Source: Chromatiaceae bacterium
GTDB lineage: Bacteria; Pseudomonadota; Gammaproteobacteria; Chromatiales; Chromatiaceae
DNA length: 64,000 nucleotides
Assembly: GCA_027078745.1 (NCBI GenBank)
Contig: JALWWO010000009.1
Location: forward strand, 62,001-126,000
Reading direction: 5' to 3'
In this document: positions 50,908 through 53,534 of the stretch, in pieces
How positions within the stretch are numbered: position 1 is the stretch's first letter
How the letters are laid out: each line of letters opens with the position of its first letter
Notes under the pieces: model-generated
Told to the model about the DNA's origin: nothing
The model's database searches: none
Seen by the model: only the letters and a program-made list of their open reading frames with translations
Position numbers and translations under genes: made by a program

Positions 50908-50936
50908 GAAAAGGGGTTCTGGAAACCAGAACCCCT
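50908..50936 (-). terminator. Rho-independent terminator of ssrA
   Basis: An 11-bp perfect stem (AGGGGTTCTGG / CCAGAACCCCT) with TTT loop, followed by TTTTCC on the minus strand, 4 nt after the tmRNA CCA end. Confidence 0.88.
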
Positions 50937-50957
50937 GGATTGGTGGAGGCGGCGGGA

Positions 50958-51209
50958 CAGCGGATCCCTATCTTTCGATAGGGGCTGGACTATTCCTTCA
51001 CCTGCGGTTCCCCACAGGGGAGGGCGTGTTGTGGATCTTCATCCACCCTAGTACTCCCTGGGCTGGGTGCCGGTAGGAGCCTATGAGTCTCTAGCCGGCG
51101 GCTTGGTTTCCCATTGACCGGACGGCGTCGGCCTAGGATCGAATCCCGTAGCGTTCACCGTGTGAGCCCTCTGTTTCCGACGGGAATCGCTTCCCGTGGC
51201 GACCGTTCG
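50958..51209 (-). ncRNA. Group I intron in the tmRNA T-loop
   Basis: A 252-nt insertion after U of the 5' exon (…TTCGAT) and ending in G at 50958, as group I introns do (5'-exon U, intron terminal G). The intron core elements are recognisable on the minus strand: P-like CAATGGGAAACC (within 51100-51119), R-like AGAGACTCATAGG (51080-51092), S-like AAGGAATAGTCC (50987-50998), whose AGTC can pair with GACT for P7. GNRA-capped hairpins appear: CGGGAA-GCGA-TTCCCG near the 5' end and CCCTATC-GAAA-GATAGGG near the 3' end. A 4-bp P1 (CGAU with GUCG) includes the U-G pair at the splice site. No homing endonuclease ORF. Confidence 0.9.
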
Positions 51210-51427
51210 ATCGAACCCGCGTCCGCAGGCCCTCTGCCTGAGGCTCTACATGCTTAGCCCAATCTATTTTCTTTAACCTTCCGTTGCCCGACGGGCAGGG
51301 CAAGCGGTCGGCGATTCCGAATTGGTTTTAGCAGCCCGAGTCCGGACCCCTCGGGCGGCGATCTCATGTGCAGTTACCCCTGAAATCCGCCCCCCATGAG
51401 CAAGGAGCGGTCAGAGGCTCGCCGGAC

Positions 51428-51460
51428 TTAGGCGGCGAGAGCGTAGTTGTCGTCGTTGGC
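51428..51460 (-). CDS. tmRNA proteolysis tag reading frame
   Basis: Ten codons from the resume codon GCC to TAA encode ANDDNYALAA, near the E. coli tag ANDENYALAA. The LAA end marks tagged chains for ClpXP-type proteases. Lies inside ssrA, preceded by AATAGTT. Confidence 0.95.
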   Translation of the reverse strand, partial: ANDDNYALAA

Positions 51461-51570
51461 AACTATTGGTGTGCGGATGGATTTACGAGGTATCCCGCAC
51501 CTCGGCATGCACCCCAGGTTTCGCAACCCGCGTCGAAAGCCAGGTCGCCCCCAGATCATAGGAATGAGAC

Positions 51571-51620: not shown

Positions 51621-52106
51621 TCAATGGCTTTTCTTGAAGAAACGGGCTTTTTCCCGCTGCCAATCCCGATCCTTCTGGGCTGCCCGCTTATCGTACAGCT
51701 TTTTGCCCTTGGCTAAACCGATCTCCAGCTTTGCGCGACCCCGCTTCCAATAGAGGGCAGTGGGCACCAGGGTATAGCCTGCCCGCTCCGTGAGCCCGAT
51801 CAACCGGTTGATCTCCGCACGCTTGAGCAACAGCTTGCGGGTGCGGACGGGATCGGGGGCGATATGGCTGGAAGCGCTCGGCAAGGGGGAAATGTGGCAG
51901 CCCAGGAGGAAGGCTTCCCCCTGCAGGATGCGCACATAGCTTTCCTTGAGCTGCGCCCGCCCTGCCCGCAGGCTTTTCACCTCCCAGCCTTCCAGGCTCA
52001 AGCCCGCTTCAAAACGCTGCTCGATGTGGTAATCGTGGGAGGCCTTTTTGTTCAAGGCGATGGTGGCGCCGCCCCGACCGGATTTTCCTTTCTTTTTCTT
52101 TCCCAT
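51621..52106 (-). CDS. smpB: SsrA-binding protein SmpB
   Basis: Binds tmRNA and mimics the missing anticodon arm and mRNA in the ribosome. It has 161 residues: [39 protein letters not shown] is diagnostic, and the C-terminal [26 protein letters not shown] tail forms the helix in the mRNA channel. The start is ATG at 52106; no good ribosome site is seen. The gene directly precedes ssrA on the same strand, 68 nt away. Confidence 0.97.
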
Positions 52107-52190
52107 GGAGAACAGTGTATCAAAGCGACGCACGGCGCTCCCGATAAATCGTTCGGGGCTGTCGGGAAACGAACGGCCCATCTTCCCTGA

Positions 52191-52330
52191 TCCTTCGGTA
52201 CGAAGGAATCTTCCTATTCTTTCTTCGTCCTTCCTGCGAATAGCCTGCCCCTGCGAAAGCAAGGAGCGGGAATTCCTGGATTCCGGCTCTCCGCTGCGCT
52301 CTGCCAGGAATGACGATGGGGTGCATGTAT
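52191..52330. repeat. Dispersed palindromic repeat, REP-like
   Basis: Includes CTGCGAAAGCAAG and GGATTCCGGCTCTCCGCTGCG followed by GCCAGGAATGACG, a pattern also found at 53535-53820 and, in part, at 49520-49555. Inverted halves are visible (GGAATTCC, CCGGCTCTCCG). It separates smpB from the Cys-repeat gene. Confidence 0.65.
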
Positions 52331-53421
52331 CATTCTTCAAAAGCCTGACCCGGAATTATCTCTTGCGCAGAAATAGGGCGGGAACGCTGGCTCAGTATTT
52401 GCGCGTCGGGCACCATTTTGTTCAGGAATTGGATTCCTACCCGCGCCGCGCCGAAAGCGCCAGCGAAATAACAACCGTCGAGTGCATTGCACCTGTTTTC
52501 GCCGATATCCGTCACACCGAAAGCACCTGAGAAATAACAGGCACTCTCTCCCCTGCACGCATGAGCGCTGATATCGGCTAATCCAAAGGCGCCGGCGAAA
52601 TAACAGGCCTGATTTCCCTGACAGGAAGCTTTACCGATCCGAGCAGTATCATCATAACCCGCATACTCGCAGGCTCCATAACCCGTACAGGCTTGTGCAC
52701 CGATGCGAACTCGAGCTAGATTCCCCTGGTTCTTACTGTAACCCGCATAGGTGCAAGCTCGATACCCTGTGCAGCCCCCGTCGCCGACGGCGATTCTGGC
52801 GGAATCGCCGTTTGTCTCGCTATAACCTGTATATCCACAGGCTTTGTAACCATTGCAACTGCCTTCTCCGAGGGTTGCTACGGCAGAAGCGCCCCCCACT
52901 TCCGCATAACCCGTGCGATAGCAGGCATAAGGCCCTTTGCAGCTCCCATTACCGATGGAGGCTGTACCCCGCCGGCCCGCTTCATAGCAACTTTGTATGC
53001 CGTCGCACGCCTGTTCACCGATGGAAACCGCGCCCTGTTGACCAACATTTCGGCAAGCTTCTCGGGCGTTGCAGGCATGATCCCCAATTTGAACGCGCTC
53101 GCCGCCCACGCCTGCCCCTGCGCAAGCGTTCCAAGCATTACAGGCATCGCTGCCGATCCGGACCGATTCTCCGAGGTTTTGGCAAGCACCTTGGAAATTG
53201 CAGGAATTCGGACCAATGACAATCCCGTTTCCTGCACCGATCCAGCTGCAGTATTCGTTAGGAAGCTGATCTGCCCGCGCGCCTCCGCAGGCGTTTGCAC
53301 CAATCTGGGGCTTTCCGACCGAGACGAAGGAATCCTCATCGGGAAAGACTGAGGCAGCCACGACGAGAGGAGCCCATAGCATTCCGAAAAGAATCCAACT
53401 GCGCATCCGGCTAATGTTCAT
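52330..53421 (-). CDS. Secreted protein of ~12 cysteine-pair repeats
   Basis: A 363-residue precursor; signal peptide [20 protein letters not shown] followed by VAASV, and TGGAG 6 nt before the ATG at 53421. From about residue 40 on it consists of ~12 repeats of 19-28 (mostly 22) residues with the pattern IGxxxCxGxxACxxAGxxG, for example [17 protein letters not shown] and [17 protein letters not shown]. Spacing of C-x4-5-C and the IG/G positions suggest a disulfide-laddered beta-solenoid. It ends in about 35 non-repetitive residues. No family recognised. Confidence 0.75.
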
Positions 53422-53534
53422 CAAGTACTCCAGGCGTGAAAAACGATCATTTGGTGAAGCTTCGCATGAGGCAAGCAAAGTGGGTGCCATTTAAATTCTT
53501 TCTGAGAAAAGCGCAATCGGGGAATGGCTGGGGA

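Follow-up and report, generated by a model that had tools for sequence, protein, structure and literature searches.

We wondered whether the tmRNA gene (ssrA) of this Chromatiaceae bacterium, which is broken within its T-loop, carries a group I intron, and how such an intron would have reached it. In the window (the whole 64,000-nt stretch of DNA analyzed here), ssrA runs from 51552 to 50941 on the minus strand, 612 nt by sequence reading and the tmRNA model RF00023, and is interrupted by 252 nt. It is a single copy: a scan of the genome, which is 97.17% complete, gave no second match above the cut-off of RF00023. The RF00023 match (51552-51177, minus strand, 176.2 bits, E=4.5e-70) supplied the tmRNA check proposed in the initial annotation of the locus; its alignment misplaces the T arm because the insert interrupts the tmRNA. 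The features of the locus are as follows.

51210..51552, minus strand: tmRNA (ssrA) 5′ exon, 343 nt, 3′ end ...GCGGGTTCGAT (RF00023; junction read directly)
50958..51209, minus strand: group I intron, 252 nt, T-loop position 7 (junction, empty sites, homologues, covariation and exon join; 290.4 bits with R1, a model built from 11 introns of which this is one)
50941..50957, minus strand: tmRNA 3′ exon, 17 nt, TCCCGCCGCCTCCACCA (TCCCGC CGCCTCC ACCA; direct reading and exon join)
51428..51460, minus strand: tag reading frame ANDDNYALAA plus stop (ARAGORN on the joined exons)
51621..52124, minus strand: smpB, encoding the partner protein of tmRNA, upstream of ssrA in the same orientation (PF01668 SmpB, E=3.7e-58)
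50912..50936, minus strand: terminator-like hairpin 3′ of ssrA (consensus scan alone, which found 2 against 1.1 expected)

The insert follows the sixth T-loop nucleotide, so that the gene reads ...GCGGGTTCGAT, then 252 nt, then TCCCGCCGCCTCCACCA. Its boundaries are fixed, as the bases on either side (T|C...G|T) allow no sliding. Removing it in silico leaves a 360-nt tmRNA with the T arm GCGGG-TTCGATT-CCCGC (the joined T arm reads TTCGATTCCCGC) and a 7-bp acceptor stem, GGGGGCG/CGCCTCC. ARAGORN 1.2.41 called a tmRNA with the tag ANDDNYALAA on the joined exons; it called none in the window as it stands, nor in 18 homologue loci. The perfect rejoining of the T-arm halves, read from the letters in the initial annotation, is thus matched by a gene call that appears only after removal. 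Insertion after loop nucleotide 6, with an exact join that restores a TTCRANN loop, places the insert at T-loop position 7. The gene is in standard order, rather than having its 3′ piece before its 5′ piece as permuted tmRNA genes do. A pattern search in relatives recovered the empty site: 43 of 61 uninterrupted T arms read GGACGCGGGTTCGATTCCCGCCGCCTCCACCA.

The closest named relatives of the SmpB encoded here belong to Chromatiaceae, and the class sampled below was taken as Gammaproteobacteria on that ground. Beside smpB, positions 52330-53490 (minus strand) encode a 386-aa repeat-bearing protein with a DUF7640 match (E=2.9e-18).

Same-site homologues and the group I fold

A BLAST search with the 252 nt as query, run on 369 genomes of the class Gammaproteobacteria, gave matches over 220 columns in nine others (77-83% identity); additional shorter matches fell at the intron 3′ end. 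Homologous ssrA insertions, suggested earlier as a check, are therefore at hand: the 16 BLAST loci with both exons all share the same T-loop junction. R1 exceeded 200 bits in 20 of the 369 class genomes, the window's own included, and introns cut by contig ends were present in two further genomes of this sample (L043 and L046). In the order sample 13 of 195 genomes passed 200 bits, own included and all in the window's family; a 14th match was an uninterrupted T arm of 32 nt. Among the 398 genomes of the phylum sample only the window's own did so. Weaker R1 matches (20-45 bits; 14 in the phylum sample and 10 in the class sample) were considered as tmRNA introns and rejected; in the 18 of 24 that were read, by eye, they look like introns of tRNA genes or like tmRNA that is not interrupted. 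In the neighborhoods of 80 named smpB genes R1 found no intron; 29 of these loci gave a 25.5-bit, 32-nt match to the uninterrupted T arm, and 51 gave no R1 match. Cultured-phage and plasmid records held no relative of the window intron: the phages gave only 28-31-nt matches (E>=0.08) and the plasmids a single match (E=0.3).

Two observations concern tmRNA genes in this wider set. One genome of the window's family holds two high-scoring tmRNA genes (G028:C1:446132-446491 and 2191434-2191793). At L326:1501-1671, a second tmRNA-like 3′ end was seen by eye about 140 nt past an intact one; an integrated element might leave such a trace.

We then wrote a structure by hand from the window sequence and scored it on A2, an alignment of 17 introns. 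The predicted core comprises P1, P2, P3, P4, P5, P6, P7, P7.1, P7.2, P8, P9 and P9.0, with P3 and P7 crossing as a pseudoknot. Its elements, written as RNA, are listed here.

51200..51213, minus strand: P1, exon CGAU and intron C with GGUCG; splice-site U.G at 51210/51203 (U.G in 17/17 rows)
51180..51197, minus strand: P2 hairpin with a GCGA (GNRA) loop (two-sided changes in 7/7 pairs)
51166..51171, minus strand: P3 5′ strand GAGGGC, partner 51025-51020 (two-sided changes in 4/6 pairs)
51020..51025, minus strand: P3 3′ strand GCCCUC (hand-written structure and A2)
51122..51161, minus strand: P4-P5 domain, P4 being ACGG/CCGU (structure and A2; outer P5 pairs poorly across rows)
51095..51121, minus strand: P6 (CCGG/CCGG) with P6a (structure and A2; P6a paired in 71-85% of cells)
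51086..51089, minus strand: P7 5′ strand GACU, partner AGUC at 50991-50988, the guanosine-site helix (paired in 17/17, invariant)
50988..50991, minus strand: P7 3′ strand AGUC (structure and A2; partial RF00028 match at 50968-50993)
51053..51080, minus strand: P7.1 hairpin (two-sided changes in 4/5 pairs)
51031..51046, minus strand: P7.2 hairpin, the region where phage relatives hold LAGLIDADG genes (two-sided changes in 5/6 pairs)
51001..51018, minus strand: P8 hairpin (two-sided changes in 6/7 pairs; 79% of cells paired)
50966..50983, minus strand: P9 hairpin with a GAAA loop (two-sided changes in 5/7 pairs)
50958..50987, minus strand: P9.0 (CAGC 50987-50984 with GCUG 50961-50958) around P9; the last base is omega-G (two-sided change in 1/4 pairs)

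Pairing held in 93.4% of 1138 cells of A2, with two-sided changes in 41 of 68 pairs and a covariation score of 0.505; one row, L041, is off by one base in P3 and was scored as unpaired there. None of 500 shuffles reached these pairing and covariation values. Pairing fell to 33-46% when partners were slid by 1-3 columns, a control over which a fold derived from the window has an advantage. Most two-sided changes sit in P2, P3, P7.1, P7.2, P8 and P9. P7 is invariant in A2, so its support consists of position and complementarity only. A candidate P7, GNACUA before P7.2, was dropped: with GACU in its place both P7.1 and P7.2 fall between P7 and P3, and this strand sits in a motif of the type UAGAGACU, as in tRNA introns. 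P5a and P6a pair in 41-85% of A2 cells and may be drawn wrongly. MFE folding alone (z=-2.9) was set aside as evidence, the pseudoknot being invisible to it.

The junction GCGGGTTCGAT|TCCCGC, the U at -1 and omega-G recur in 32 of 32 introns (the window's, 19 further ones from the class sample and 12 from the order sample), more than chance would give; all were picked with R1, which includes flanking exon bases. These introns are 250-348 nt long, and a simple pattern finds the P9 GAAA in 30 of the 32. The U before the insert, the insert's final G and the U-G in P1, all pointed out in the initial annotation, hold up across the homologues; the GNRA hairpins mentioned there are present in the window intron (GCGA in P2, GAAA in P9).

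The same annotation had made a significant Intron_gpI match the measure of group I identity, and by that measure the window falls short: it scored 13.9 bits (E=0.37; gathering 50) over P7-P9 only, and a search across its genome gave no match at E<=1. Yet this reflects a limit of the model. Its cut-off marks what is detected and does not define a group I intron. In the homologue L042 the insert matched Intron_gpI from model position 1 to 253 (37.2 bits, E=1.7e-6, below the gathering score), and the viral relative L149 reached 35.9 bits (E=3.4e-7). Permissive Rfam settings were used on six homologue loci in all, and the five besides L042 gave no match at E<=1; none of 16 homologue loci attained the gathering score. 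With L042 passing and the window and five other homologue loci failing, we dropped Intron_gpI as a sole test because it is insensitive. Same-site homologues share a covarying fold, and L042 gives a full-length Intron_gpI match; for these reasons the 252-nt insert is, on sequence evidence, a group I intron that encodes no protein and sits in the T-loop of the one tmRNA gene detected in the genome. The covarying core with its P3/P7 pseudoknot, the P1 U.G and omega-G bear out the original assignment.

The window intron belongs to an already published kind, the group I introns that interrupt tmRNA genes at T-loop position 7. Williams reportedly treated these introns in 2002. With them it shares the gene, the loop site after nucleotide 6, the U at -1 and omega-G; its length is similar (252 nt against a published founding-set mean of 293 bp), and like most of them it has no homing gene. 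The initial annotation called such cases few, which is outdated: the text of PMC11915505 gives 883 unique intron-form tmRNA genes, all with T-loop introns and most at position 7, in 21 phyla, with homing-endonuclease genes in 36. The terms Gammaproteobacteria, Proteobacteria and Pseudomonadota are absent from its main text, and two passages there on phages are silent on introns. The 287-nt intron of Clostridium botulinum, stated in PMC2729099 to have been shown to self-splice, likewise lies in tmRNA, a likeness drawn from its description. The two hairpins between the P7 5′ and P3 3′ strands have counterparts in the P7.1 and P7.2 of group IA introns, of which PMC4227781 describes the IA2 subclass. 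We did not file the window intron as IA2 because it lacks the extended P9 domain (P9.1/P9.2) of that subgroup; its 3′ end shows P9.0 and P9 only. Bacterial and phage tRNA group I introns have similar core motifs around P7 and give weak R1 matches (20-45 bits), but their insertion sites differ, and those read look by eye like tRNA introns.

Intron and exon histories

Does the intron share the history of the gene that holds it? We compared trees of 28 introns and 26 exon sets, two sets having been left out for their shortness. In three exon rows, one of them the window's, a few flanking bases remain that the 5′-end pattern had missed. The window exons are 83-84% identical to those of the four g24 carriers compared, which belong to its own family, whereas its intron is only 52-54% identical to the g24 and g307 introns. 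Conversely, introns from eight other families and from g12 share 75-81% identity with the window intron, and the exons of these carriers, where their length allows a comparison, are 71-74% identical to the window's.

The trees give the same picture, with bootstraps that are not fully settled and many inner forks open. The window groups with 11 others in the intron tree (100/100) and with g24 and g307 in the exon tree (100/98). A constraint that unites the introns of the host family in a single clade is rejected (p-AU 5e-51). So is one that unites the exons of the window-type carriers (p-AU 4e-5), a group named after the introns had been seen. As the intron and exon trees conflict, the window's copy of the intron seems to have moved in horizontally.

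The conflict would also arise if two old intron types had been inherited vertically and lost many times. The intron tree does contain two deep types, separated by a 100/100 split, and 182 of the 195 order-sample genomes have no full intron match. This history is nevertheless improbable. L039 and L045, from the same genus (f46 g80), have sister exons (100/100) and introns of different types, and the window resembles L033, from another family, more closely in its intron (81%) than in its exons (72%).

Splicing and ribosome rescue

Group I splicing takes two steps, an attack by guanosine at the 5′ splice site and a second attack, by the exon set free in the first, 3′ of omega-G. We infer that the window intron is spliced in this way. 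The primary transcript would fold the intron core (P3-P9), and exogenous guanosine would attack 3′ of the exon U(-1), the U of TTCGAU, held in the P1 U.G pair. The 5′ exon would next attack 3′ of omega-G, so that TTCGA-U is joined to U-CCC and the T arm is made whole again. Only after splicing would the 3′ exon form the tRNA-like domain, to be followed by aminoacylation and trans-translation. The intron itself would have arrived in the window's lineage by horizontal transfer. Taken together, a group I intron without a gene, splicing that restores the T arm, and horizontal arrival make up an explanation that we regard as highly likely.

How far the cell would depend on this step was judged from two rescue factors, ArfA and ArfB. 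Neither ArfA nor an ArfB-sized RF-1 family protein was found in the window's genome; its two RF-1 family proteins, with frames of 378 and 344 aa, are RF1/RF2-sized. Because there is one tmRNA gene and ArfA and ArfB were not found, it is plausible that trans-translation, likely the genome's main rescue route, would depend on splicing. An RNA-catalyzed step thus appears to be placed between transcription and the only ribosome-rescue system detected in this genome.

If instead the intron were a fossil, its fold would persist in a copy that no longer splices, and the tmRNA gene would be dead. The very low Intron_gpI score would suit such a state, which we consider highly improbable: no defect shows in the exon pairings, the tag, the splice-site U.G, omega-G or the core, and losing the sole tmRNA gene found, in a genome where neither ArfA nor ArfB was found, would be costly. 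That mature tmRNA keeps the insert, with a T-loop enlarged by it, can be given almost no credence: a group I core whose two splice-site signals recur in all 32 of 32 carriers would go unexplained, and the tRNA-like elbow requires T-loop geometry. Intron-bearing tmRNA genes escape some tools: ARAGORN missed the gene in the window and in the 18 homologue loci, and Intron_gpI stayed under its gathering score; RF00023 catches the 5′ exon.

Relatives in viral contigs

A search with a core pattern gave 17 viral-contig stretches, 14 of which match R1 at 98-199 bits; four pairs among the 14 are identical over the match, leaving ten that are distinct. A second pattern gave at least 118 new loci. When 78 of them were given to R1, two scored 181 and 148 bits, and the rest stayed under 50 bits or had no match. 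By sequence, at least 12 distinct viral-contig tmRNA genes hold an intron between the T-arm halves (one, L154, is cut at its 5′ side). Of the ten scanned, Rfam placed six above a tmRNA gathering score (L146, L148, L150, L152 and L156 with RF00023, L149 with RF04321) and L151, L154, L158 and L160 below. The standard 5′-end motif lies upstream in eight of nine viral loci tested and is absent in L158. LAGLIDADG-like reading frames, antisense to the tmRNA and in the P7.2 region, were present in all three introns tested, with L158 just under the Pfam cut-off.

L148:1036-1479, L150:1496-2029 and L158:9447-9857, opposite to the tmRNA: LAGLIDADG-like reading frames in phage introns (LAGLIDADG family matches)

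A similar insert in the P7.2 region of the L146 intron was noticed by eye.

In an unrooted tree of 40 introns that includes the phage rows (L154 and L046, being incomplete, were omitted), a 100/100 split has the window type and the phage introns on one side and the second bacterial type on the other. A single phage clade is weakly rejected (p-AU 0.021, with long branches); the starred branches alone are compatible with one origin of the phage label. Four of the viral-contig loci had no relative at E<=1e-3 among 50,697 phage records. With intron and host trees in conflict and phage relatives at the same site, the route by which tmRNA introns spread becomes testable.

Two viral-contig tmRNA genes appear to be circularly permuted as well as intron-bearing in the T-loop.

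L149:1830-2400, minus strand: permuted-looking tmRNA with intron, the same intron being in L155 (order, acceptor pairing and tag)
L151:12350-12850, minus strand: permuted-looking tmRNA with intron (order, acceptor pairing and tag)

In L149, whose intron sequence recurs in L155, the T arm with its 281-nt intron and the 3′ end precede the 5′ piece. Three nucleotides past the CACTA end of L149, GGGGATA pairs 7/7 with TATCTCC, and the tag VNNIYPFSRKRALVAA follows. L151 has a 236-nt intron and a 30-nt spacer, an acceptor that pairs 7/7, and the tag ASNDSTYDQRLAA. The permuted-tmRNA model, in whose T-loop the L149 insert falls, gave 47.9 bits for L149, barely above the gathering score of 47, and 30.9 bits, under gathering, for L151. 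This model alone is not decisive because it also scores 27-42 bits on four standard-order homologue loci. The apparent permutation of L149 and L151 is instead argued from gene order, acceptor pairing, the tag and the missing 5′-end motif, no standard copy of which was found within 900 nt upstream of either. Of six neighboring proteins tested around the permuted-looking genes, five matched phage families, including RIIB.

Permutation combined with an intron is absent from Table 3 of PMC11915505, which lists tmRNA forms. A search by title and abstract, mainly of open-access literature, recognized no report on permuted and intron-bearing tmRNA or on phage tmRNA introns. We tentatively propose, with slightly more doubt than belief, that T-loop introns form a mobile lineage that passes between bacterial and phage tmRNA genes, that phages act as reservoir or vehicle, that the window intron is a gene-less arrival, and that L149/L155 and L151 represent a further form of tmRNA gene. 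If such genes are a further form, the RNA made from them would have to undergo splicing as well as permutation processing.

The viral contig of L149 has a second group I intron, in a tRNA-like gene at L149:2678-2860 (minus strand), some hundreds of bases away from its intron-bearing tmRNA; Intron_gpI scores this intron at 41.4 bits (E=7.9e-9), below gathering. In the viral contigs L163-L240, many group I core motifs were seen by eye shortly 5′ of tRNA-like 3′ halves; these are apparently phage tRNA introns.
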